41,589 bases of DNA from a virus: positions 1 through 41,589 of IMG/VR virus record IMGVR_UViG_3300043444_000373; one strand, given 5' to 3'. The stretch's first letter is position 1. Every line of letters starts with the position of its first letter. The position numbers were made by a program, and so were the translations under genes. Below the pieces are notes generated by a model. The model saw nothing but the letters and a program-made list of their open reading frames with translations, had not been told where the DNA came from and did not search any database. Below, piece by piece: positions 9,772-37,413 of this stretch.

Positions 9772-9846
9772 GCGCTAGAAGCTGACCGGTCAAGCAGGAG
9801 CCTCTAAAACTCCGAGTAGTGGGTTCAATTCCCATCTAGCGCACCA
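9772..9846 (+). tRNA. tRNA with anticodon CTA (amber suppressor type)
   Basis: A cloverleaf can be drawn by hand. The acceptor GCGCTAG (9772-9778) pairs perfectly with CTAGCGC (9836-9842), followed by A and an encoded CCA. The T arm is GTGGG/CCCAT with loop TTCAATT. The D arm is GCT/AGC with GG in the loop. The anticodon stem GGAGC/ACTCC has four pairs and a C31-A39 mismatch. The loop CTCTAAA gives anticodon CTA at 9804-9806, with T33 and A37 as required. It should read UAG. The variable loop is short (class I), so Ser, Leu and Tyr are unlikely charges. Position 8 is A instead of the near-universal T. The charged amino acid is not predictable here. Confidence 0.85.
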
Positions 9847-12916: not shown

Positions 12917-13477
12917 ATGTCGTAGATTGAATATGCTTGTAAGGACGTGGTGTTCCATTTTAACAAAAAACACCTAGAGGACCAAACCATACCTATGTGG
13001 GTCCTAAAAACACATGGGGAATCATTTTACGTTGATCACGTAACCTGCGAGATACCTTGGACTACCAAGGAAACACCAGACAACTCGCACACCAAAGGCA
13101 GTATCAAAGTCAAAGATTGTTTGCTGACAATCGACGAAGAAAACTCTGCCACTATCAGTAATCTTTCAGTATTTGATAAAATCCGCTTACGCAACCAAAA
13201 GTTGGGTATCACTAGGATCATGTTCTCTTGGGGATCCAAGATGCACACAGCATTGGCTGGCAACGAGTTCAAGCACAGTCCTTTTAAAAATGTAGAAGGT
13301 TCGTGTGGAACTAGTTACGTGATCTGCGATCTACTAAAGAAAGAGGAAGCCACTTTGGCAGCGTTAAAGTATCCAAACTCGTGGCGCATACTCAAACCAA
13401 ACGAGGTCTACTATCAGCGATACGATCAGAAAGGCACGATTTGGGAAGATGAGGATCTTGACGACGATGACGAATGA
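12917..13477 (+). CDS. Phage protein with in-frame amber (TAG) at codon 3
   Basis: The best start is ATG 12917, seven bases after AAAGGA. It reads Met-Ser-TAG-Ile-Glu-Tyr-Ala-Cys-Lys-Asp and then continues open to TGA at 13475-13477, 187 codons including the TAG (12923-12925). Codons after the TAG look coding (IEYACKDVVFHFNKKHLED). A tRNA with anticodon CTA lies 3 kb upstream, so readthrough gives a plausible full protein. The alternatives are GTG starts at 12947 or 12950; an AAGGA at 12941-12945 could serve the second at a short spacing of 4. The body has no recognised domain; the tail is very acidic (EDEDLDDDDE). Confidence 0.75.
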
Positions 13478-13486
13478 TAGTTAAAT
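13458..13486 (+). promoter_or_regulatory. Probable promoter of the tmRNA
   Basis: TTGACG at 13458-13463, a 17-base spacer, TTAAAT at 13481-13486. It lies in the end of the upstream gene and would start transcription near 13493, just before the tmRNA acceptor piece. Confidence 0.5.
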
Positions 13487-13492
13487 AACAGT

Positions 13493-13557
13493 ATTGTTGT
13501 AATTCCTTCAAAGCGAAGGCATGTTGGACGGCGGTTCGATTCCGCCCAGGTCCACCA
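13493..13557 (+). ncRNA. ssrA: Permuted tmRNA, acceptor (3') piece
   Basis: The tRNA-like 3' half lies upstream of the 5' half, the hallmark of two-piece permuted tmRNA. T stem GGCGG (13530-13534) and CCGCC (13542-13546) enclose TTCGATT. The acceptor strand CAGGTCC (13547-13553) pairs fully with GGGCCTG at 13624-13630, including the G3-U70 wobble read by alanyl-tRNA synthetase; A and CCA follow. A hairpin CCTTC/GAAGG lies at 13505-13519. The 5' end is estimated. The intervening segment (13558-13623) is closed by a 12-pair helix (13557-13568 with 13609-13620) and would be cut out. Confidence 0.9.
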
Positions 13558-13623
13558 AAAGAATTCTTCACCCTGTATAGAGACAGACAAGTGCTATAGA
13601 CTATACTAAAGAGTTCTTTTGAG

Positions 13624-13834
13624 GGGCCTGACAAGGTTTCGACAGCGTGAGATAGTAGAGACGGCAACACGGTAGGCGATGACCGTAAATCAAGCAAAAC
13701 CTATAAATGCAAACGAAGACGCATTTGACTTCGCAGCACTAAGCTTCACAGGTAACACTGTGGGTGGTCGTGTTGCACTAGCAGCCTAAGAAACTGCAAG
13801 TCGGGGGTAGCTATACCTTCTTACCCAAAATAGT
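13624..13834 (+). ncRNA. ssrA: Permuted tmRNA, coding (5') piece with 26-codon tag
   Basis: The mature 5' end is GGGCCTG at 13624. The tag reading frame begins with the resume codon GCA at 13709-13711 and runs 26 codons to TAA at 13787-13789. The tag starts ANEDAFDFAAL and ends RVALAA, so it carries the usual ANxxx start and the LAA-type degradation end, but is long compared with the 10 residues of E. coli. The role is rescue of stalled ribosomes by trans-translation and marking of the product for proteolysis. A G-rich pseudoknot-like 3' region follows, then a strong terminator. The 3' end is estimated. Confidence 0.92.
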
Positions 13835-13860
13835 AAAAGTGGCCTTCGGGCCACTTTTTT
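13835..13860 (+). terminator. Intrinsic terminator of the tmRNA
   Basis: AAAAGTGGCC (13835-13844), loop TTCG, GGCCACTTTTTT (13849-13860). A strong stem with a stable tetraloop and a T tract. Confidence 0.92.
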
Positions 13861-13861
13861 A

Positions 13862-14704: not shown

Positions 14705-15238
14705 ATGAAAACAGTTGGTAATAAATTAGAAAAATTTGCCGTAACAGGCGTTAACCCAGGTAAGGATGATTTCTTTACTATCACCGAAGAATCATTTCCA
14801 GGCAAGTGGAAAGTAATCGTTTACTATCCAAAGGACTTTACATTTGTATGTCCAACTGAAATCGTTGCCTACGATAAACTACACAGCGACTTCGCTGATC
14901 GCGATGCAGTATTACTCACAGGTTCGACAGACAATGAGTTCTGCAAATTAGCATGGCAGGCCGCACATGAAGATCTAAAGAAGATCAAGCACATTCAGTT
15001 CGCTGACACACAGCGTGGAGAGTTAAGCCTTGTTGAGCAACTAGGTGTATTCTTTGCACCAGCAGGTGCGGCATTACGTGCTACATTCATCGTTGACCCA
15101 GAGAACGTTATCCAGCACGTTACTGTCAACAACTTGAACGTTGGTCGTAGTTCAGACGAAACACTTCGTATCCTCGACGCACTACAAACTGGTGAGAAGT
15201 GTGCATGTAACCGTTCAATTGGCGGGGAGACACTATAA
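14705..15238 (+). CDS. ahpC: Peroxiredoxin, AhpC type
   Basis: A 177-residue thiol peroxidase that reduces hydrogen peroxide, organic peroxides and probably peroxynitrite. The peroxidatic cysteine is C49 in FTFVCPTE, and the C-terminus carries C166-A-C168, the resolving region typical of AhpC enzymes that work with AhpD. The full thioredoxin-like core is present (VNNLNVGRSSDE). Its TAA overlaps the ATG of ahpD, so the pair is co-translated. A dedicated extended -10 promoter lies upstream. Peroxiredoxins are rare in phages; the natural role would be protecting the infected cell from oxidative stress. Confidence 0.95.
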   Translation: MKTVGNKLEKFAVTGVNPGKDDFFTITEESFPGKWKVIVYYPKDFTFVCPTEIVAYDKLHSDFADRDAVLLTGSTDNEFCKLAWQAAHEDLKKIKHIQFADTQRGELSLVEQLGVFFAPAGAALRATFIVDPENVIQHVTVNNLNVGRSSDETLRILDALQTGEKCACNRSIGGETL

Positions 15239-15753
15239 TGACTGCATGGGTTGATCAGTTAAAGGACACTATTCCTGACTATGCCAAAGACACACGTCTC
15301 AATATTGATGCTGTGGTCAAGCGTTCAACCCTTCCACAGGAAGAAGCAGAAGCTGTTGCCTTAGCGGCAGCTTTTGCCACAGGCAATACCAAACTGTGGA
15401 CTTGGATGCAGACACAGATCGCAGACCAGAAAGAAGCCGAGGCCGCGATCACTGCCGCTAGTTTGATGGCCATGAACAACGTTTGGTATCCGTTCGTTGA
15501 AATGGCTGAAGATGCTAACCTCAGCGGCTTACCACCACAACTGCGTATGAACGCTATCTCAACACACGGCGGAACAACACAGGCTCGATTCGAAGCCTAT
15601 GCTCTTTCTGCTAGTATTGTTGGCAAGTGTCACTTCTGTGTTAAGGCGCACTACGAAACATTGAAGAAGGCAGGCTACACAGTAGAACAACTTCGTGATA
15701 TTGGACGTATTGCCGCAGTGATTACAGCAGTGGCTAGAGTTCTGAATAGTTAA
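15238..15753 (+). CDS. ahpD: Alkylhydroperoxidase AhpD-like protein
   Basis: A 171-residue all-helical protein with the AhpD redox motif C131-H-F-C134-V-K-A-H138. In bacteria AhpD regenerates AhpC and is itself reduced through lipoylated proteins of central metabolism. Translation is coupled to ahpC (TAATG). Length matches AhpD (about 175). The presence of both partners suggests a complete peroxide-reduction pair that draws its electrons from host lipoamide. Confidence 0.92.
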   Translation: MTAWVDQLKDTIPDYAKDTRLNIDAVVKRSTLPQEEAEAVALAAAFATGNTKLWTWMQTQIADQKEAEAAITAASLMAMNNVWYPFVEMAEDANLSGLPPQLRMNAISTHGGTTQARFEAYALSASIVGKCHFCVKAHYETLKKAGYTVEQLRDIGRIAAVITAVARVLNS

Positions 15754-15807: not shown

Positions 15808-15840
15808 TATAATAACGATACATACTAAGCAACAGTATGT
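15808..15840 (+). promoter_or_regulatory. Promoter and 5' hairpin of pqqA
   Basis: TATAAT at 15808-15813; no good -35 box is seen 17 bases upstream. Transcription would start near 15820, exactly at a 7-pair hairpin ACATACT/AGTATGT (15820-15840, loop AAGCAAC minus flanks). A hairpin at the extreme 5' end is a known way to stabilise short mRNAs. Confidence 0.5.
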
Positions 15841-15863
15841 TTTATTGATAAAGGAGAAACACT

Positions 15864-15935
15864 ATGTGGACCAAACCAGAAGCAGTTGAAATGCGTTACG
15901 GTTTCGAAGTTACAATGTATGTAATGAATCGATAA
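15864..15935 (+). CDS. pqqA: PqqA, precursor peptide of pyrroloquinoline quinone
   Basis: A 23-residue peptide beginning MWTKPEAVEMRYGFEVTMY and ending VMNR. It matches the PqqA family over its length: the MWxKP start, GFEVTMY core, and the E15-x3-Y19 pair whose side chains are cross-linked by PqqE and become the PQQ cofactor. AAGGAG (15851-15856) is 7 bases before the ATG, and a terminator follows, so it is a complete one-gene transcript. No pqqB, C, D or E is in the window, so host enzymes would be needed. The short length is normal for PqqA (about 22-24). Confidence 0.92.
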   Translation: MWTKPEAVEMRYGFEVTMYVMNR

Positions 15936-15942
15936 ATCAATG

Positions 15943-15964
15943 AGCCCACTTCGGTGGGCTTTCT
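15943..15964 (+). terminator. Intrinsic terminator after pqqA
   Basis: AGCCCAC (15943-15949), loop TTCG, GTGGGCT (15954-15960), then TTCT. It overlaps the next promoter's upstream edge by a few bases. Confidence 0.85.
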
Positions 15965-15965
15965 C

Positions 15966-15994
15966 TTGACTTTTCTCTAACAAATAAGTAAAAT
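15966..15994 (+). promoter_or_regulatory. Sigma70-like promoter with leaderless start at 16001
   Basis: TTGACT at 15966-15971, a 17-base spacer, TAAAAT at 15989-15994. The expected transcription start (about 7 bases downstream) falls on the A of the ATG at 16001, so the mRNA should be leaderless. Confidence 0.65.
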
Positions 15995-16000
15995 TTAACT

Positions 16001-16414
16001 ATGATAGATTGTTTAATAATTGGTGACAGCATTGCCGTAGGCACAGCAATGGCTCGTCCAGAATGTGTAAGTTACAGTAAGGGTGGTTGGAATAGCTGGC
16101 AGTGGAATAAAGATTATCTTGCCAAAGCCAGTGCCCAGCCTGCTAATACTGTAATCATTAGTCTCGGTGCCAACGATCACAAAGGTGTCAAAACCGAACA
16201 AGAACTAAGAAAGATGCGATCCGCTATGACAGGGAAACGTGTATTTTGGATCGACCCGGGTCAGGATCGAAAACCTGTCCCTCATGACGCTATCGTTCGT
16301 ATCGCGGCAGAATATGGTGATGTCGTCTTACCTAGGCCTAAAGACCATATGAGTGCCGACGGCATCCATCCTACAGGTCGAGGCTATAAAAAACTAGCAG
16401 AACAAACCAAATGA
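16001..16414 (+). CDS. SGNH/GDSL-type hydrolase, small
   Basis: A 137-residue protein with the SGNH blocks: nucleophile S10 in IIGDSIA, N58 in SLGANDH, and D120-x2-H123 in SADGIHPTGRGY. It is a compact version of the family (usually about 200 residues) and lacks a signal peptide, so it probably acts in the cytoplasm as an esterase or deacetylase on a small or carbohydrate substrate. The next gene, an epimerase, overlaps it by four bases, suggesting a shared role in modifying sugars. No ribosome site is seen; the promoter places transcription at the start codon. Confidence 0.85.
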   Translation: MIDCLIIGDSIAVGTAMARPECVSYSKGGWNSWQWNKDYLAKASAQPANTVIISLGANDHKGVKTEQELRKMRSAMTGKRVFWIDPGQDRKPVPHDAIVRIAAEYGDVVLPRPKDHMSADGIHPTGRGYKKLAEQTK

Positions 16415-17379
16415 ATATTTTAGTAACAGGTGGCCTGGGACTTATTGGTCATAACATAGTTCAAAAATTATCCGGATTAGGACATAATGTCGTAGTCTAC
16501 GATAACTGCACAAATTACGGCATTATACCACAAGATGAAATTGATCATCTTATTAGAGAACGTAAAAAATTAATTGGTGATGTAGAGATTCACGAAATGG
16601 ATATTCTACAGGGTAGTATGTTTGATTATCTTCTGCCGCATCACAAAATAGAAGCAATCATTCACCTTGCTAGTTTTCCTAGACAAAAAGTAGTCAATGC
16701 TAATCCAACCTGGGGTAGCACTGTAATGAGCACTGGACTTCTAGTTCTATTAGAGGCAGCAGTTAAGCACGGTGTTCGTAGATTTACCTATGCTAGTTCT
16801 AGTATGGTCTACGGAGACTTTGAGGACTATGTCACAGAAGATGCTCTGTGCCGCCCGCAGGGACAATACGGTATTCTTAAACTCGCTGGAGAATGGTTAG
16901 TCAAAGACTACACACGCAAACATGGTATCGAACATACTATCCTACGACCTAGTGCTGTCTATGGTCCGTTGGATGTTGAGGATCGTGTTATTTCAAAGTT
17001 TCTACTTACGGCAATGCGTGGCGGAACACTCAAAGTAAACGGCATCAAAGAAACTCTAGACTTTACCTATGTAGATGATGCTGCCAATGGTTTCGTTGCC
17101 GCTACCTTATCTGATAAGGCAGCAAACGGAACATACAACATAACCAAAAGTCATTCAACTACTCTTTTGGCTGCTGCCGAAATGGCTGTGAAGTTAGCAG
17201 GACGTGGCGTTATCGAAGTCAAAGACAAAGATGCTGATTTCCCTAGCCGAGGTGCCCTAGATATTACCAGAGCTCGAAATGATTTTGGATTTGATCCAAA
17301 AGTGGATGTCGCAGAAGGCTTCCAAATCTACTACGATTGGTTGAGTAACGATCCTTATTTTGGTATTGACAATCACTGA
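16411..17379 (+). CDS. NAD-dependent nucleotide-sugar epimerase/dehydratase
   Basis: A 322-residue extended short-chain dehydrogenase. The NAD motif is VTGGLGLIGHNIV at residues 4-16, the catalytic Ser region is YASSSMVYG, and the Tyr-Lys pair is in YGILKLAGEW. The fold continues with LRPSAVYGP and TYVDDAANGF, as in GalE/RmlB-like enzymes. Likely substrates are UDP-, GDP- or dTDP-sugars used for glycosylation of the host surface, phage proteins or DNA; the specific sugar is unclear. It overlaps the SGNH hydrolase (ATGA). Confidence 0.92.
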   Translation: MNILVTGGLGLIGHNIVQKLSGLGHNVVVYDNCTNYGIIPQDEIDHLIRERKKLIGDVEIHEMDILQGSMFDYLLPHHKIEAIIHLASFPRQKVVNANPTWGSTVMSTGLLVLLEAAVKHGVRRFTYASSSMVYGDFEDYVTEDALCRPQGQYGILKLAGEWLVKDYTRKHGIEHTILRPSAVYGPLDVEDRVISKFLLTAMRGGTLKVNGIKETLDFTYVDDAANGFVAATLSDKAANGTYNITKSHSTTLLAAAEMAVKLAGRGVIEVKDKDADFPSRGALDITRARNDFGFDPKVDVAEGFQIYYDWLSNDPYFGIDNH

Positions 17380-17425: not shown

Positions 17426-17818
17426 TTGAGTATGCATTTGGAAGGCCCGTGGTTGTCCACTACCGGCAAGAAAAAAGGCAAACGTAAATTTCGTAATGCT
17501 GACGAAGCAAGGAAGGCAAGACAATTGGCAGAAGATTGGCAAGAACTACTAAAACGGCACGGTGTTGAGCAGGAAGAACGCAAACGTCGACGTGCCTTAG
17601 AGTCGGGAACATACTCTCCTCCAAAAGTAGAACCTTACCGAAGAGAGACTCCGAAAATTCCTAGTCTTGATCCAACTAACATGGCACCGTGTTTGAAAGC
17701 ACCTGATAAGGTATACACCGGCACCATGATCAAAGGCATCGGCACCATGCATAAAAGTAATGCAGTTCCTATCTTTTCAGACGAAGAAGCCGTTGAGATA
17801 TCCAAAATGCGTCGATAA
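17426..17818 (+). CDS. Conserved basic phage protein, function unknown
   Basis: A 130-residue protein. A TTG start at 17426 has AGGAGAA 5 bases upstream; the ATG at 17432 is an alternative. The N-terminal half is very basic (GKKKGKRKFRNADEARKAR) and helical, and the C-terminal segment (GTMIKGIGTMHKSNAVPIFS, then DEEAVEISKMRR) looks strongly constrained. A nucleic-acid binding role is plausible from charge alone. It has its own consensus promoter. Confidence 0.75.
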   Translation: MSMHLEGPWLSTTGKKKGKRKFRNADEARKARQLAEDWQELLKRHGVEQEERKRRRALESGTYSPPKVEPYRRETPKIPSLDPTNMAPCLKAPDKVYTGTMIKGIGTMHKSNAVPIFSDEEAVEISKMRR

Positions 17819-24502: not shown

Positions 24503-26392
24503 ATGTCTAAGATCATCGGTATTGACCTCGGCACCACCAATTCATGCGTGGCCATCATCGAGGCAGGAAATTCCAAAGTTATTGAAAATTCAGAAGGTGC
24601 TAGAACTACACCTAGTATCGTTGCCTATACCACAGATGAAGTGTTAGTAGGTGCGAGTGCAAAAAGACAAGCGGTTACAAATCCTAAAAATACAGTCTAT
24701 GCCGCTAAACGATTAATCGGTCGTAAGTTTACCGAAAAAGAAGTTCAAAAAGATTTAGACCTTATGCCATACGAAATCTTCGAAAGCAAAAACGGAGATG
24801 CATGGGTTAGGGCACAGGGCAAAGAATTAGCACCACCTCAGATCTCTGCAGAAGTTCTTCGCAAGATGAAGAAAACCGCAGAAGACTATCTCGGTCACGA
24901 AGTAACACAGGCAGTTATCACTGTTCCGGCTTACTTCAATGACCAACAACGTCAAGCTACTAAGGACGCAGGACAGATCGCAGGTTTAGAAGTTCTGCGT
25001 ATTATCAACGAACCAACTGCGGCTGCTCTAGCCTATGGCGTTGACAAAGCCGATAAACAAGATCGCAAAGTTGCTGTCTATGACCTAGGTGGTGGAACAT
25101 TTGACGTTTCGATCATCGAAATCGCAAACGTAGATGGAGATAAGCAGATTGAAGTGCTATCAACCAACGGTGACACATTCCTGGGTGGTGAAGACTTTGA
25201 CCAGCGCATCATGGATTACCTAGTTGACGAGTTCAAGAAAGAACAAGGTGTCGACCTAACCAAAGATACATTAGCTCTACAGCGTCTTAAAGAAGCTGCC
25301 GAAAAGGCTAAGATTGAACTATCTAACAGTTCACAGACTGATGTTAACTTGCCTTATATCACAGCAGATGCAAGTGGTCCTAAGCACATGAACATCAAGA
25401 TCACACGTAGCAAGTTAGAACAACTTGTTGAAGATTTAATTAATCGTTCACTAGCACCTTGCCGAACAGCATTGAATGATGCTGGTATTTCAGCAAGTGA
25501 TATTGACGAAGTTATCTTAGTTGGCGGTCAGACACGTATGCCTAAGGTGCAGGAAGAAGTTGAAAAACTATTCGGCAAAGCACCTCGTAAAGATGTCAAC
25601 CCAGACGAAGCCGTAGCAGTAGGTGCGGCCATCCAGGGTGCTGTTCTAGGTGGTGATCGCAATGATGTTCTACTACTTGACGTCACACCATTGAGCTTAG
25701 GTATTGAAACACTAGGCGGAGTGATGGCTAAGATCATTCAAAAGAATACAACTATTCCTACCAAAGGACAACAGACATTCTCTACAGCAGAAGATAATCA
25801 ACCCGCGGTGACTATCAAAGTTTTCCAAGGTGAGCGTGAACTTGTTCAACATAACAAGTTACTAGGCGAGTTTAATCTAGAAGGCATTTCTCCGGCACGT
25901 CGAGGTATGCCACAGATTGAAGTTACCTTTGACATCGATGCTAACGGCATTATGAATATCTCAGCCAAAGATAAATCAACTGGTAAGGAAAACAAGATCA
26001 CTATTAAGAGTGACAGTGGACTAAGCAAGGAAGAAATCGAACGCATGGTTCGCGACGCTGAAGCCAACGCAGAGGCAGATAAAAAAGCACGTGAATTAAT
26101 CGATGCTAGAAACTCTGCAGAAGCACAGATGCACGAAGTCCGCAAGGATCTTGAAGAATTCCGTTCAGAGTTATCTGAAACAGAAATCTCAGATATTGAA
26201 AAGGTCCTAGCAGATGTTGAAACAGCTTGTAAAGGAGATGACGTAGCGGCCATTAAAGCAGAACTAGAAAAGGCTGTTCCTGCTATGAAAACTCTTTTAG
26301 AAAAGCGACAGGCTAAAGAACAGTCACAGACTGCTCAGCCTGCACAAGATGATGTAGTCGACGCTACCTTCACAGAGAAGAAAGACGACTAA
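24503..26392 (+). CDS. dnaK: Chaperone DnaK (Hsp70)
   Basis: A 629-residue, full-length Hsp70. Nucleotide domain: [13 protein letters not shown] (phosphate 1), [13 protein letters not shown] (phosphate 2), [12 protein letters not shown], and [11 protein letters not shown] (adenosine). The linker [10 protein letters not shown], the beta substrate domain and a helical lid follow. The end, [14 protein letters not shown], is like the conserved bacterial tail (DVVDAEFE). No DnaJ or GrpE is encoded nearby, so host co-chaperones would be used. Full-length DnaK in a phage is unusual; it may aid virion folding or replication. AAGGAGA precedes the ATG. Confidence 0.97.
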
Positions 26393-27231: not shown

Positions 27232-27773
27232 GTTTAAGAGAAATTACCAAAGACCTTCATCACGAAGCAGAAAAAACAAAATTCGCAAAATTGCTGTTAA
27301 GCGGCAAGATTGAAAAAGCCGATTACAGAAACTATCTTTATAATTTAATGGCGGTTTATGATCCTATCGAATGGTATTGTAACCGTCAAGGATTTCTAGA
27401 TACCATGCTAGATCTTCCTCGTCTAAAAGCGATCTATGCAGACTTTGTAGAATTAGACGATGGCACATACTGCTATCTGACACCAGCAACATTAGAATAT
27501 CAAGAATATCTACACAGGATCGGCAATGATCCAACACGTAAGCATTTAGTCAAAGCCCACTTATATTGTCGCCATATGGGTGACTTGTTCGGCGGACAGA
27601 TTATTAAAAAACAAGTAGCACATATCAGTAGCGGTAAGTTTTATGATTTTGAAAATGCCGATGATATGAAAATGTCTATTCGAGAAATACTCACAGATGA
27701 TCTAGGAGACGAAGCTCGTGTAGCATTTAAGTATGCTATCAAGATGATGCAGGATCTCTACAATGGAGAGTAA
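27228..27773 (+). CDS. Heme oxygenase
   Basis: A 181-residue all-helical enzyme that opens heme to biliverdin, CO and iron using reduced ferredoxin. The proximal ligand is probably H11 in DLHHEAEKTKF (pattern H-x2-A-E), and the distal helix is HMGDLFGGQIIKK, matching GDLSGGQ of Ho1 enzymes. It overlaps clpS upstream and the bilin reductase downstream (10 bases), giving a substrate-product gene pair as in cyanophages. The host need not be photosynthetic. Confidence 0.92.
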   Translation: MSLREITKDLHHEAEKTKFAKLLLSGKIEKADYRNYLYNLMAVYDPIEWYCNRQGFLDTMLDLPRLKAIYADFVELDDGTYCYLTPATLEYQEYLHRIGNDPTRKHLVKAHLYCRHMGDLFGGQIIKKQVAHISSGKFYDFENADDMKMSIREILTDDLGDEARVAFKYAIKMMQDLYNGE

Positions 27774-28446
27774 GGTCTGGTATACACTAATAGGTATACA
27801 AAATCTATTAGAAAAGCGTTTTAGTGAAACCGGAGTAGAAACATTCGAACCCGGAATGAATCGTTTCAATCAGCCGGGTTGGGTAAACAGGGTATGGACT
27901 TCAGAGAATTATCGTAGAGCTCATATCGATGTAGTCGATGCCCGATCCACAAAGGGCCTCTGGATGATGCATTGTTGTGTATTTCCTCATATCCATAACC
28001 CGGCACCCATATTTGGTTTCGATGTTATCGCAGGCAAAAATAAAATCACGGGCTGTTTTATTGACTATAGTCCTACCGCAGATCGTGAACATCCGATGAT
28101 AGAATATTTTGCTGAAGAAGTTAGCAGATATGAATGGATTCGAGAAAGAGAATTACCCGAATGGGCACAGCGTATTTTCAGCAAGAGTATGGTAGCCGCT
28201 GGAAACGTCAAAGAAGAGGACGAACTTAGGCAGATCGAAAGCCTAGCACATATACTAGTAAATCACTACACAGAAACTGTGGGTGACACTAATCACAAAG
28301 TAGCAGATACTACTTTTGAGCAGAATTTCTATGCTCAAAACCAGAAACAAAACCCGCATACGCCACGTGTAATGACTAGTCTAGGCTTAGACGAAGACGA
28401 TGTGCGAGTTTTTATCCAGGAATGCCTCTTTCCTGAAATACGATAA
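27763..28446 (+). CDS. pcyX: Ferredoxin-dependent bilin reductase, PcyX-like
   Basis: A 227-residue protein of the bilin reductase family (HY2/PcyA/PebS). Core: RVWTSENYRRAHIDVVD, then WMMHCCVFPHIHNPAPIFGF. By alignment to PcyA (E76, H88, D105), this protein has D56, H70 and D87. The Asp-His pair is retained and the Glu is replaced by Asp, as reported for phage PcyX enzymes that turn biliverdin into phycoerythrobilin by a four-electron reduction. Later, NPHTPRVM lacks the PcyA Asp (ND-K-T). The product is probably phycoerythrobilin; the host role is unclear. It is coupled to heme oxygenase. Confidence 0.88.
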   Translation: MESKVWYTLIGIQNLLEKRFSETGVETFEPGMNRFNQPGWVNRVWTSENYRRAHIDVVDARSTKGLWMMHCCVFPHIHNPAPIFGFDVIAGKNKITGCFIDYSPTADREHPMIEYFAEEVSRYEWIRERELPEWAQRIFSKSMVAAGNVKEEDELRQIESLAHILVNHYTETVGDTNHKVADTTFEQNFYAQNQKQNPHTPRVMTSLGLDEDDVRVFIQECLFPEIR

Positions 28447-32904: not shown

Positions 32905-35301
32905 ATGAAAAAAACAATAATAGCCACTATAGTGGCAGCAATGGTATCGGCGTCGGCGTTTGCCCAGACAGCTAGCGTTGACGGGACCTCAGGAATGGGT
33001 CTATTACAAAACGACTGGGTAAAAGCAGGCGTTAATACGAACACAGGAACATTGGGATCAGGCGGTGGAACTAGTCCTGGACTATTGTTCGATCCTACAG
33101 GCACGGGAACATTCAATGCTGCCTATGATTACCTAACACCTGGAGCACCTTTTGATGGGTTCTCTTTAAAAGTTGGCACAGAAAATAAAACAAATAATAA
33201 CATGGGCACTGAACAAATCACTGGTCAGGGTCTTACACTTAGTAATACTAATACAACACTAACTTGGACAGGTAGTGCCGCATATAGCGGAAACAACTGG
33301 TCTGTAACTAATGCCTATACACTAGGAGTAGGTAAACCTTACATTGACATTACCTCTACTATCGTAGCAGGCGGTGCAGCCAGTAATGTCTACTTTGCCA
33401 AGTTTATCGATCCAGACAGCCAAGGTATGCCTGGTGACAGTTCTGCCACAGACAACGTTCTAGGTTATGGTGCTATTCCATCAACTAACGTGGCGTTCTC
33501 AGAAGCCACAGTTTCTAGATATGCTCTAGGCTTGTATTCTGCGGCTTCAAACGTAGCAGCAGGTATTAACGGGTGGAACACAGATGCTGCCAGTTATATC
33601 AATGCTGACGCATCGTGCGGCACAGGAGTATTATACTGTAACGGTGACGACACTATCGGTCTAACATTTTCGTGGACTGGTGTTAACAGTGGTGACACAT
33701 TGACAGCCAGTTACGCTTATATCTTTGGACCGAGCGCATTCGGTGCAGCCAGTTCAGCAGTGACAGGCGGTGCTGGTGGCGGAACTCCTGGAACTGCACC
33801 AGGAGGTGGCACACTGGTAGACGTGGGTTCAGCGACAACCGCAGCTTCTACAGGAGGCAGCACACCTACTGTAACAGGCACAAGCACAGTCAACGGAACT
33901 CCAACTTATGCTGATACTACAGGTGATGCTGTAGTGATTTCTACTTCGTTAGTTGCAGGCGACAAACTAACAAGAAACTACAACAGCCTAACAACCACAG
34001 AAATGGGCCGTATCACAACAACACCAACCACTGTAGTTACTACCTATAGCGACAGTTCAACAACAAGTGCTGCTGGAACACCTATCACAGTTTCAGAAAC
34101 ATATTACAACAATTTAGATGTTACACATGCCGACGTAGCCACAGGAAGCACAGCTATTGGTGATGCTGTTTGGGTATCTAACGGTATCGACAACGGTAGT
34201 TTAGTTAATACATCAACTACACTAACTTCTGTAAACAACGGTAAGACATTGACAGTTTCTACATCAGGTGTTATCACAGCCAACGAGTTGTATACAATCA
34301 CAACTCCTACAAGATTTACCTATGATAGAACTACAACAACTGTGAATTCAAATGACTTTGCACCAACAAGCAGTTACACAGATACATCGTCAACAACTGT
34401 GACTAACTCAACAGTTACTGGTGATTACGATATAGTAACTAACGACAGTATTGGTCGCACAGCTAACTATGCTGTTGATGTTGGTCTAAGATCAGATCAG
34501 GTCGCAACTGCTAATCAATTACAATCTATGATGAATAGAAATCTAGAGTTTGGTAAGACTATTACCTACAAGTATTTTGATCACAGCAGAGATGGCTATA
34601 GTGGTAATTCCACAGTGTTCGGTATAGGTCATAATAAAAATATCGAAAGTGATCTAAATCTAGGATTCGGAGTTAACAAAATCACTTCACGTTTATCTGG
34701 AAATGCCAGTGCTGTAACTGCTGACACTGTGCAGTTAGGTGCTACATTGACTAAGAAAGATGTTAAAGGTTTTGATATCAGCGGAACTGTTCAACACAGC
34801 ATGAGTGACTACAACGTATCAGCGACACCAAATGTAAACATCACAACTTCAGGTGATAGCAGACTATTAGCCACACAGGCATTTAATAACAGCTTACCAA
34901 ATGTCACAGGCAAGACCACAGGTCAAGATACTAGTGTGAGCGTAAGAGCCGTTGGTCCAGCGTTAGATCCTAAAGGTATCGTTCGTCCAGTGATCGGCGG
35001 AACATACGGACAGAGGTCAGCCGGCGGATATAACGCCAACATCGACGTATTGCCAGGTGTTACTGTATCCAACAGAGTTAATAACCTTAACCAAGATTAC
35101 GGTTATGCTACTGTAGGGGCTGTAGCCAAATATGGCATAGTAAATGCTACAGTTCTACATCACACAGATGGAGTTAATCAGTATGGTGTAGGTCTAAGCA
35201 AAGAGCAAGGCGATTTAACATTCAATGTTCGCGCAGACAGATTAGAAACAAGCCAAGGCGGATCGAATGTTTACACAGCAGGTCTAGTATATAAGTTCTA
35301 A
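32905..35301 (+). CDS. Large outer-membrane beta-barrel protein
   Basis: A 798-residue protein. Signal peptide MKKTIIATIVAAMVSASAFA before QTASVDG. Residues about 20-290 are a beta-sandwich-like domain (NWSVTNAYTLGVGKPYID); 290-530 are Thr/Ser/Gly-rich passenger-like sequence. The last 270 residues form amphipathic strands ending GLVYKF, with the terminal Phe of BAM substrates. It resembles an autotransporter-type layout without a clear autochaperone region. Next to curli genes it may display a surface structure. A GGGAGCGAA ribosome leader, like that of csgF, precedes it. Confidence 0.8.
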   Translation: MKKTIIATIVAAMVSASAFAQTASVDGTSGMGLLQNDWVKAGVNTNTGTLGSGGGTSPGLLFDPTGTGTFNAAYDYLTPGAPFDGFSLKVGTENKTNNNMGTEQITGQGLTLSNTNTTLTWTGSAAYSGNNWSVTNAYTLGVGKPYIDITSTIVAGGAASNVYFAKFIDPDSQGMPGDSSATDNVLGYGAIPSTNVAFSEATVSRYALGLYSAASNVAAGINGWNTDAASYINADASCGTGVLYCNGDDTIGLTFSWTGVNSGDTLTASYAYIFGPSAFGAASSAVTGGAGGGTPGTAPGGGTLVDVGSATTAASTGGSTPTVTGTSTVNGTPTYADTTGDAVVISTSLVAGDKLTRNYNSLTTTEMGRITTTPTTVVTTYSDSSTTSAAGTPITVSETYYNNLDVTHADVATGSTAIGDAVWVSNGIDNGSLVNTSTTLTSVNNGKTLTVSTSGVITANELYTITTPTRFTYDRTTTTVNSNDFAPTSSYTDTSSTTVTNSTVTGDYDIVTNDSIGRTANYAVDVGLRSDQVATANQLQSMMNRNLEFGKTITYKYFDHSRDGYSGNSTVFGIGHNKNIESDLNLGFGVNKITSRLSGNASAVTADTVQLGATLTKKDVKGFDISGTVQHSMSDYNVSATPNVNITTSGDSRLLATQAFNNSLPNVTGKTTGQDTSVSVRAVGPALDPKGIVRPVIGGTYGQRSAGGYNANIDVLPGVTVSNRVNNLNQDYGYATVGAVAKYGIVNATVLHHTDGVNQYGVGLSKEQGDLTFNVRADRLETSQGGSNVYTAGLVYKF

Positions 35302-35329
35302 TAATAATTATAGGGCATAGCCCAACTCC

Positions 35330-35354
35330 AAGCCCGCTTCGGCGGGCTTTTTTA
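35330..35354 (+). terminator. Intrinsic terminator
   Basis: AAGCCCGC (35330-35337), loop TTCG, GCGGGCTTTTTT. A second small hairpin GGGC-ATA-GCCC lies just upstream (35313-35323). Confidence 0.92.
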
Positions 35355-35355
35355 C

Positions 35356-35363
35356 GGTAAATA
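35356..35363 (+). promoter_or_regulatory. T4-type late promoter candidate before the cyclase
   Basis: GGTAAATA lies right after the terminator and 4 bases before the ATG at 35368. It would give a start almost at the ATG, which lacks a ribosome site. Confidence 0.4.
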
Positions 35364-35367
35364 TATC

Positions 35368-37413
35368 ATGCTGAAAAAAATCCTCACTAGCCCGTGGACA
35401 GCGGTCATAACATTGGCACTTATTGTAAGTATAAGAATCGCCGATCCTGTCTTTATAGAAAGTGTAAGACTACGTTATTTCGATACACTGATCACTAACA
35501 AAGCACCTACGGAAAATAATATCGTAACGGTTAACATAGACGAAAGTGCTTTAGACAAATATGGTCAGTGGCCGTTTAACAGAGAAGTATATGCTAAACT
35601 CATAGAAGACCTGTATAAGAGAAATGCAGGACTTGTAGTTTTTAATGTGCTAATGCCAGAGAAAGATCGTCAAGGAGGTGATGCTGCTCTAGCTGCGACA
35701 CTGAACGAATTCGCCGTGGCTGTGCCAAACATTCCTAGTGACCGTAATAAAAATAAACCTAGACAGCCCAGCACAGCAACTATAGGCGCAGAACATTCAG
35801 AAATGATCGTTACCTATCCCGGATTGATAGCTAACATCAAAGAAGTGGAACAGCGTGCCGCAGGCTCCGGCGTAGTAAACACTATGCCCGAAGTTGACGG
35901 TGTTGTCCGTCGTATGCCTTTGGTCATAGCTGTAGATGGTGTAGTATATCCTAGCCTAGCTATGGAAGCTCTGCGTATGGCTGCTGGAGATTCTACTACA
36001 CAGATAAAATTGTTCGAAGGCGGTGTAGAAAAGATGCGCATACCCGCCTTTGGTCCGATCACTACAGATCAGCTAGGCCGTGTTTGGATAGACTGGAGCC
36101 AAAAGAATAAATCTGTTCCTATGACAGCCCTACCCAAAGACTTCCAAGGGGCAGTGGTTATCGTAGGTGTGGCCGCAGCCGGTCTCGGTAATCCTGTGCC
36201 CACAGCAGTAGGATCAGTTTGGCCGCAGGACGTCCAGGCCGCTGTGTTAGGCACAATGTTTAATGGTGTGGTGATTGAAAGACCTGACTATGCCGACGGT
36301 GTAGAAATTCTAACACTGGCACTGGCAGGTATTCTATTAATATTTTTAACGAGGTATGTCTATGCGGGTTTGGCAACGACGGTTATTATTATCGGTGGCA
36401 GTGCTGTTGGCAGCTGGTATGTGTTCACTAATTATCTATGGCTATTTGACGCTACTGCCCCTGGAGTTGGCCTACTTGTGGTCGCTCTGCATGCCTACGG
36501 TGTCAAGTTTGTAAGCGAGTTCTTACAGAAGCAGGCGATTAAGAAACAGTTCGCTGGTTACTGTTCAAAGGAAGTTGTAGAACTACTACAAAATGATCCA
36601 GACCTAATCAAGCGTGGGGTGCGTAAAGACGTATCAGTTATGTTCAGTGACCTACGTGGCTTTACTCCTATCGGAGAACACTATGGTGACGATGTTGCTG
36701 GCCTAGGCAAATACATGAACGGTTATATGGATGCTATCAGTCGGCCTATATTAGATAACAAAGGAATGGTTATTAAGTATGTAGGTGATGCTAGTATGCA
36801 CATACATGGGGCACCAATTGACGACCCTAATCATGCACATACAATGATCAAAGTTGGTCTTGAAATGCTAGACGCTGTAGATCGTTACACTAAAGAAATG
36901 GAAGCACAGGGATTGCCACCTGCGGCTATGGGCTGGGGTGTTAACAGCGGTATTGGCTTTATCGGCGAGATGGGATCGACTGATCGTCACAGTTACGATA
37001 TCCTAGGTGATATGGTTTCAACAGCCGCACGTTTAGAAGCACGTTGTAAAGCCTACGGTGTGCTAAACATTGTCGGCGCCGAGACATACAACAGAACTAA
37101 GAATGATTTCTTCTACCTGATGCTGGATAATCTACAGCCCAAAGGCAAGAGTGTAGCAGACTTGATCTACACAGTATTAAGAACCAACGGCGCTGACTAT
37201 ACCAAAGATAAAGTATGGCACGATGAGATGCATGCCTTGTATAAGGCTAAAAAGTTTGATGAAGCTGCCGCTATGTGTAAGACCACCTTAAAGGGCAAGT
37301 TTGGCGGACAGATGGACAAGTATTATAAGATTTGGATCGAACGTTGTGACTTTATGAAACAACAAGACTTACCGGAGAATTGGAATGGAGAGTTTATCGC
37401 ACATGAAAAATAA
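35368..37413 (+). CDS. CHASE2-domain adenylate cyclase (class III)
   Basis: A 681-residue membrane protein. An N-terminal helix, then a CHASE2 sensor (IVTVNIDESALDKYGQWPF through GVVRRMPLVI, about residues 47-290), three membrane helices (about 305-395), and a class III cyclase domain. Metal-binding D428 (VMFSDLRGFT) and D474 (KYVGDAS), and the adenine-specifying pair K470 and D544 (SYDILGD), are present, predicting cAMP production. The transition-state Asn of the N-x3-R motif is S551; R555 is kept. A cyclase this complete is exceptional in a phage. The gene follows the OMP and FecR genes. Confidence 0.9.
   Translation: MLKKILTSPWTAVITLALIVSIRIADPVFIESVRLRYFDTLITNKAPTENNIVTVNIDESALDKYGQWPFNREVYAKLIEDLYKRNAGLVVFNVLMPEKDRQGGDAALAATLNEFAVAVPNIPSDRNKNKPRQPSTATIGAEHSEMIVTYPGLIANIKEVEQRAAGSGVVNTMPEVDGVVRRMPLVIAVDGVVYPSLAMEALRMAAGDSTTQIKLFEGGVEKMRIPAFGPITTDQLGRVWIDWSQKNKSVPMTALPKDFQGAVVIVGVAAAGLGNPVPTAVGSVWPQDVQAAVLGTMFNGVVIERPDYADGVEILTLALAGILLIFLTRYVYAGLATTVIIIGGSAVGSWYVFTNYLWLFDATAPGVGLLVVALHAYGVKFVSEFLQKQAIKKQFAGYCSKEVVELLQNDPDLIKRGVRKDVSVMFSDLRGFTPIGEHYGDDVAGLGKYMNGYMDAISRPILDNKGMVIKYVGDASMHIHGAPIDDPNHAHTMIKVGLEMLDAVDRYTKEMEAQGLPPAAMGWGVNSGIGFIGEMGSTDRHSYDILGDMVSTAARLEARCKAYGVLNIVGAETYNRTKNDFFYLMLDNLQPKGKSVADLIYTVLRTNGADYTKDKVWHDEMHALYKAKKFDEAAAMCKTTLKGKFGGQMDKYYKIWIERCDFMKQQDLPENWNGEFIAHEK

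Follow-up and report, generated by a model that had tools for sequence, protein, structure and literature searches.

The window, which is the whole stretch of DNA that was analysed, is an IMG/VR virus record of 41,589 bases, and its linear form and length suggested that it is probably a fragment. On the plus strand it encodes a short peptide, MWTKPEAVEMRYGFEVTMYVMNR, which is followed by a TAA stop codon. The gene, its flanking signals and its neighbours are as follows:

14705-15238, plus strand: AhpC/TSA peroxiredoxin gene, upstream of pqqA (Pfam)
15238-15753, plus strand: gene of a CMD-family protein, upstream of pqqA (Pfam)
15808..15813, plus strand: -10 box TATAAT of the pqqA cassette, read from the sequence
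15820..15840, plus strand: 5' hairpin ACATACT-AAGCAAC-AGTATGT, with arms at 15820-15826 and 15834-15840, a 7-nt loop and 7 bp
15851..15856, plus strand: Shine-Dalgarno sequence AAGGAG, read from the sequence
15864..15935, plus strand: pqqA, 23 codons plus TAA, above the PF08042 and TIGR02107 cut-offs, with E15 and Y19
15943..15966, plus strand: terminator-like stem-loop AGCCCAC-TTCG-GTGGGCT plus a T-rich tail, with arms at 15943-15949 and 15954-15960
16001-16414, plus strand: GDSL-like hydrolase gene, downstream of pqqA (neighbour, context only)
16411-17379, plus strand: NAD-dependent epimerase gene, downstream of pqqA (neighbour, context only)
17426-17818, plus strand: gene of a protein of unknown function, downstream of pqqA (neighbour, context only)

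The peptide matched PF08042 with an E-value of 7e-9 (35.9 bits versus a cut-off of 21.1) and the NCBIfam equivalog TIGR02107 with an E-value of 1e-8 (34.9 bits versus a cut-off of 20). When the record was searched in all six frames, this ORF was the sole PqqA match (E 3e-9, far beyond chance), and a PHROG search with the peptide gave no match. The Glu and Tyr of PqqA are the residues that become PQQ; both were present, as Glu15 and Tyr19, and the E-x3-Y spacing was kept. Judged by these matches, the ORF is an authentic PqqA. The 23-codon PqqA with Glu15 and Tyr19 that the first-pass annotation had described was therefore confirmed, with both curated cut-offs exceeded. Binding by PqqD and cross-linking by PqqE are predicted for the phage peptide. 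The pqqA gene usually adjoins pqqB-E, but adjacency is not required, and stand-alone copies are common in the Methylophilaceae. We searched the 41.6-kb window record for PqqE and PqqC and obtained no matches, and pqqA stood without an adjoining pqqE or pqqC. The earlier statement that no other pqq genes are present thus held for PqqE and PqqC, and it refers to this linear piece rather than to the whole virus.

We further analysed the signals around the gene. The -10 box that had been claimed was present at its position, though without a consensus -35, and a promoter scan of the window listed no site using this -10 box. The hairpin starts 6 nt past the -10 box and so lies at or near the expected 5' end of the mRNA, and TATAATnnnGATACATACTnA was found once in the window even with 3 mismatches allowed. 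The strong ribosome site of the first-pass annotation was likewise present, and this AAGGAG, 7 nt before the ATG, gives pqqA its own translation start. The claimed terminator stood in part. The stem 3' of pqqA was present and was accepted on the plus strand by a looser terminator rule, but its tail, TTCTCTTG, is a moderate, imperfect T run, and a stricter scan listed the stem only on the minus strand.

The window holds 54 genes taken from the ORF list, all on the plus strand, and between 38.3 and 39.5 kb only other-strand frames were found. The protein families included ribonucleotide reductase subunits, a tail lysozyme, an endolysin, endonuclease V, Hsp20 and an IMP dehydrogenase-like protein. 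The viral neighbours of pqqA belonged to tail, endolysin and ribonucleotide reductase families, and other phage contigs had similar surroundings. Homologues of the pqqA-neighbouring genes were located on contigs as long as 364 kb, and a DnaK-like gene at 24503-26392 (named 'DnaK' in some records) had relatives that included huge phages of 484-735 kb, among others. These matches indicated that the window most likely comes from the genome of a large phage. We regarded this virus as probably one of methanol-eating bacteria. Several other features of the record were observed. A tRNA with a CUA (amber) anticodon and an encoded CCA lay at 9772-9846 and was called tRNA-Pyl by ARAGORN and tRNA by Rfam. 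Prompted by this tRNA, TAG recoding was considered and rejected, as only two minus-strand frames join two long pieces over a TAG; one of the 54 genes ended in TAG. A tmRNA gene of the betaproteobacterial, permuted type lay at 13444-13861. When it was compared by blastn with 150 genomes of the order, the best match covered about 110 bases at 80% and the others were short pieces, which gave no information on the host. The stretch at 27763-28446 matched ferredoxin-dependent bilin reductase (PF05996, E 2.5e-15), which was unexpected, as the host is presumed to be a non-phototroph.

To survey pqqA in phages, we compared the window peptide by tblastn with 50,697 phage records, and 12 records were matched. 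Nine of these were phages of Methylophilales (MEP401, MEP402, Venkman, MEP301, P19250A and four Melnitz isolates), a number that represents the records found rather than a share of all cultured methylophages. A tenth was the uncultured phage ctXG6705 from Manatee Spring. Two contigs named 'Acinetobacter phage MD-2021a' (L490 and L497) were dropped as phage evidence owing to a pqqABCDE operon inside them; the pqqBCDE genes beside pqqA indicated that they are most likely host chromosomal DNA. Two further queries, of other PqqA types, added no record from the same 50,697, and one of them was weak, matching only Melnitz at E 8. Further methylophage names are held in NCBI taxonomy (MEP431-434, Venkman EXVC038S, HIM624-A and phiMB624-A); Venkman EXVC038S was not recovered by a search of the collection with Venkman DNA, and MEP431-434 were not among the matches listed for a Pelagivirus protein query (MEP431 belongs to the genus Pelagivirus). 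In the cultured phages, pqqA lay at different genomic places. The annotation was inspected in seven of the ten genuine records, including one of the four Melnitz isolates (Melnitz-1). No annotated feature covered pqqA in MEP401, MEP402, Venkman, MEP301 and P19250A, and an antisense 'hypothetical' CDS, which is probably spurious, lay over it in Melnitz-1 (L123 4961-5056) and ctXG6705 (L124 2067-2195). The description of the gene as easily missed was therefore borne out in all seven records. Genes for consumable peptides may be missed by gene callers because of their short length, and pqqA represents such a blind spot of annotation.

A pattern scan of IMG/VR returned at least 120 stretches, and all 120 listed encode a PqqA-like peptide. 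Grouping by shared flank proteins, which was applied to the 103 loci with enough flank (MEP401 and MEP402 not among them), gave 5 to 21 phage backgrounds depending on the rule. These results showed that pqqA occurs in several phage contexts. A tblastn search with PqqB-E found no match in 366 viral stretches (120 + 239 + 7), and the same search found 24 of 123 host loci. Consistently, PqqE and PqqC above the cut-off were found in none of 37 viral records with pqqA, fragments included, and the positive control worked; weak radical-SAM matches below the PqqE cut-off were found in three of the 37. A PQQ-type alcohol/methanol dehydrogenase was present in 1 of the 37 records, that of L043, and none was found in the window record. 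The L043 record (L493, L494) combines pqqA with a PQQ-dependent alcohol/methanol dehydrogenase at 34049-35731, in an open frame of 628 aa.

Relatives of the window were collected through three neighbours of pqqA, the best 80 loci being taken with each; L287 occurred twice, which left 239 loci. pqqA was found in 17/80, 7/79 and 19/80 of these best-80 sets, or 43/239 in total, and scans with frames of at most 120 residues between stops and without a length limit both gave this number. By contig name, the 43 loci represented 35 contigs. The PqqA scores were bimodal: 42 loci reached at least 45 bits, whereas L263 had 31.7 and the next locus 10.8. Both Glu and Tyr were kept in 42 of the 43 frames. 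The L263 frame was truncated after MWTTPSATDMRFG, which may reflect a decaying copy or an assembly error. A sequence rule recovered 41 of the 43 genes and missed L263 and L425. Counted as distinct arrangements, most relatives carried pqqA downstream of a peroxiredoxin and/or CMD gene, as in the window, and no more than about 130 bases away from a recognised neighbour; L428, L468, L376 and L324 were among the exceptions. Homologues of the downstream neighbours of the window also flanked pqqA in the relatives, in varying order.

The presence of pqqA among the relatives was patchy. A tree was built from the protein encoded at 17426-17818, with 75 rows of which 20 carried pqqA. At least nine presence changes were required on it, seven of which were forced by well supported branches. 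This is a single short-protein tree, which gene exchange may also have shaped, and it omits six loci in which pqqA was not called and less than 3.5 kb lay upstream. The pattern suggested that pqqA comes and goes, fitting gain and loss that follow the host. The other 196 of the 239 related loci, some of them cut short, were without pqqA, which indicated that the gene is dispensable in this phage family, although those phages may infect other hosts. The first-pass annotation had proposed a search of related phages for the peptide, and the gene was conserved in the 43 neighbour-found loci and in the nine methylophage records.

We compared synonymous and nonsynonymous differences over 63 codon-aligned bases. 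Between the window and L428, L466 and L424, pS was 0.34, 0.51 and 0.09, respectively, and pN was 0 in each pair. The identity to the window was 67-76% for four recognised neighbour proteins of L428 and 50-80% for the recognised neighbour proteins of L466. A sample of 4000 pairs from 141 distinct viral pqqA sequences gave a pN/pS ratio, calculated from the two means, of 0.20, a value biased low because most of these sequences were found by a pattern fixing GFEVTMY; more weight was therefore put on the pairs found through neighbouring genes. The substitution patterns indicated that selection acts on the PqqA peptide.

The cassette was then compared across the relatives, other viruses and hosts. 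Among 27 distinct upstream regions of the phage family, that of the window being one of them, 19 had a module of a -10 box and a perfect stem 5' of pqqA, versus 2 of 27 in one shuffled set. Any upstream stem of at least 7 bp was found in 19/26 regions of this family (1.6 expected), in 33/109 of the other viruses (5.9 expected), in 2/7 isolate or uncultured-phage loci (1.0 expected) and in 14/130 host pqqA copies (6.8 expected). We aligned 23 leaders (22 distinct), which left out L468, L376, L273 and L324; 98.6% of the cells in the 22 distinct leaders were paired, a percentage that was partly chosen, as the leaders were picked from the 27 by a visible module. Three of the seven pairs changed on both sides, in 11 cells, and slid controls gave 0-1 such cells. 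Three both-side-change pairs were reached in 23 of 500 column shuffles, and the observed number of pair types in 314 of 500; relatedness among the leaders inflates these covariation counts. Five of the leaders with paired changes could go back to a single event as their common origin. The 5' hairpin noticed earlier was not only present in the window but also conserved and covarying in the relatives.

A purine-rich ribosome site preceded pqqA in 41/41 relatives recovered by the sequence rule and in 114/119 IMG/VR stretches, which came from the pattern-scan set of at least 120 after L062, with unknown bases, was dropped. The terminator-like stem followed pqqA in 37/41 relatives (2/41 shuffled), in 52/117 other viruses (2 shuffled) and in 2/7 isolate or uncultured-phage loci (0 shuffled). 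These results indicated that the hairpin and the terminator are not general across the phages carrying pqqA. In the window and its relatives, 32 of the 45 places with a -10 box, stem, ribosome site and ATG were pqqA, and five of the remaining 13 were a peroxiredoxin gene, as checked by homology. A leader with a -10 box and hairpin similar to that of pqqA was seen before some peroxiredoxin genes. In this phage family, the pqqA cassette looks like a self-contained unit for an abundant small peptide.

The motif GFEVTMYVMN was found in at least 120 stretches of the genome collection; 94 of these belonged to the Methylophilaceae and 26 had no family label, and no other family occurred among the 120 listed. 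Judged by its type of PqqA, the phage would infect a methylotroph, most likely a member of the Methylophilaceae. The nearest host pqqA compared was 87% identical to that of the window over 63 bases. We examined 24 host genomes, chosen because the motif was present, for the pqq genes that the first-pass annotation had assigned to the host. PqqE was above the cut-off in 22/24 and PqqC in 21/24, and the genomes missing them were assemblies of 0.7-0.9 Mb. The genomes held 1-12 copies of pqqA. Conservation in related phages and the presence of host pqq genes were the two refuting checks named in the first-pass annotation, and its idea withstood both. In the available text of a previous study, the Methylophilaceae were reported to have multi-copy pqqA, the other pqq genes being mostly single-copy (PMC4109929).

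Starting from the observed gene, its family membership, the selection on its peptide, the conserved cassette, the link to methylotroph phages and the host enzymes, we infer the host, the expression and processing of the peptide, the rise in PQQ and its benefit as follows. The chemistry of PqqA-E is established: one PqqA is consumed per PQQ, and PqqB-E are catalytic with many turnovers. Methanol dehydrogenase is the entry of carbon and energy in these hosts. In infection, the phage would transcribe a short mRNA that starts with the hairpin, which, by analogy with known 5' stem-loops, may stabilise it and likely guards against 5' decay, and the strong ribosome site would drive PqqA translation. 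Host PqqD and PqqE would bind the phage peptide and cross-link Glu15 to Tyr19, and a host protease, PqqB and PqqC would complete PQQ. Since PqqA is used once per PQQ, a phage shutting down host transcription would lose PqqA first, and the phage would replenish this substrate as the host mRNAs run out. With catalytic enzymes already in the cell, the phage would have to provide nothing but the substrate. The extra PQQ would keep the PQQ-dependent methanol dehydrogenase charged until lysis. We consider it probable that the phage supplies only the consumed substrate, that host enzymes do the rest and that PQQ keeps methanol dehydrogenase charged in this way.

Other readings of the same data were weighed. 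Phage-driven PQQ might buffer the redox state of the infected cell or act there as an antioxidant, instead of serving methanol dehydrogenase as its cofactor, and the peroxiredoxin and the CMD-family protein (which we take to be AhpD-like) encoded just upstream of pqqA in the window, with one or both in most relatives, would suit such a role. However, no peroxiredoxin or CMD gene was annotated near pqqA in Venkman, MEP301, P19250A and Melnitz-1, in which many genes are hypotheticals, and the matched phage records were methylophages and one uncultured phage only, although phages of other PQQ-producing hosts are present in the collection. We regard this role as unlikely. It was also considered that pqqA is a neutral or recent host fragment (captured, contaminating or left by recombination) without a function for the phage. 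The patchy presence, the truncated frame in L263 and the existence of mislabelled host contigs in the phage collection would agree with this, as would the 3 of 141 distinct viral pqqA sequences that matched a host sequence at all 63 aligned bases. Such a relic would hardly account for related phages that differ at synonymous sites but not in the peptide, for paired changes in the leader stem, for the different genomic places of pqqA in cultured phages or for 366 viral stretches without a pqqB-E match, and we find it scarcely credible.

Two further possibilities are that the transcript has a regulatory role as an RNA, or that the peptide is a decoy which sequesters PqqD and PqqE and lowers host PQQ. 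A short RNA with a 5' hairpin and a terminator-like stem does resemble many small RNAs, but the selection was seen at the level of the peptide, and a decoy could lose a cross-linking residue, yet both residues were kept in all but one of the frames found through neighbouring genes. These roles appear very improbable, and both they and the relic fit the selection data poorly. Substrate supply is the preferred reading. In the available part of a study on Acetobacter, extra pqqAB raised PQQ by 29%, and all of pqqABCDE raised it eightfold with slower growth (PMC7936290). This result indicated that PqqA alone need not be limiting and that the enzymes can limit too. A broader proposal is that infections of obligate methylotrophs are generally limited by the supply of PQQ precursor and that unrelated phages, maybe nearly all methylophages, have repeatedly acquired a compact and strongly expressed substrate-only RiPP-precursor cassette, with all enzymes coming from the host; here we see the case as evenly balanced. 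The same tiny gene in several unrelated methylotroph viruses suggests that cofactor supply matters in infection. In many bacteria of lakes and coastal waters, the oxidation of one-carbon compounds begins with PQQ-dependent methanol dehydrogenases. As several cultured phage-host pairs carry pqqA, the idea is directly testable.

pqqA did not turn up in a term search of the available text of the papers on Venkman, Melnitz, MEP301 and MEP401/402, and in that of the Melnitz paper PQQ occurred once, as a medium supplement. In the accessible parts of the open literature, with subscription journals mostly outside, we did not find the recurrence of pqqA across cultured methylophages, its confinement to methylophages among annotated phage records, or a conserved pqqA leader or cassette. 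Viral PqqA and the idea of methanol oxidation are already known. VP_266, a virus population from Lake Baikal that was assigned to Methylophilaceae as its host, encodes a viral PqqA that was read as support of methanol oxidation (PMC7678222). According to the text available, VP_266 is one metagenomic T4-like population that also carries a methanol dehydrogenase, unlike the window record, whereas here pqqA was followed across cultured phages and many contigs. A list of reservoir virus genes includes pqqA, pqqE and pqqD (PMC13188868); its available part files viral pqqA under phosphate solubilisation and does not contain the substrate-only reading. The breadth, the methylotroph link and the cassette were not met in the portions of the papers searched.

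Compared with its host counterparts, window PqqA is of the same type: PqqA of Methylophilaceae hosts is likewise 23-24 aa long with a WTxP...R.GFEVTMYVMN core (PF08042 / TIGR02107). Host pqqA is often stand-alone as well (99/123 loci of at most 8 kb were without a pqqB-E match), and a terminator-like stem also lies 3' of host copies (122/134). However, E6 of window PqqA was absent from the host copies compared (0/135), as were V8 and Y12 (0/104 distinct copies). The window copy is phage-borne, and host copies, unlike those of its phage family, rarely have a leader stem. If the proposed mechanism is true, the phage would feed a host pathway its sole consumable, which would be an unusual kind of auxiliary gene. 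In cyanophages, auxiliary metabolic genes like psbA and talC are host-type genes that keep host metabolism running. Those genes encode enzymes or protein subunits, whereas PqqA is a substrate, of which one is used for each cofactor molecule.
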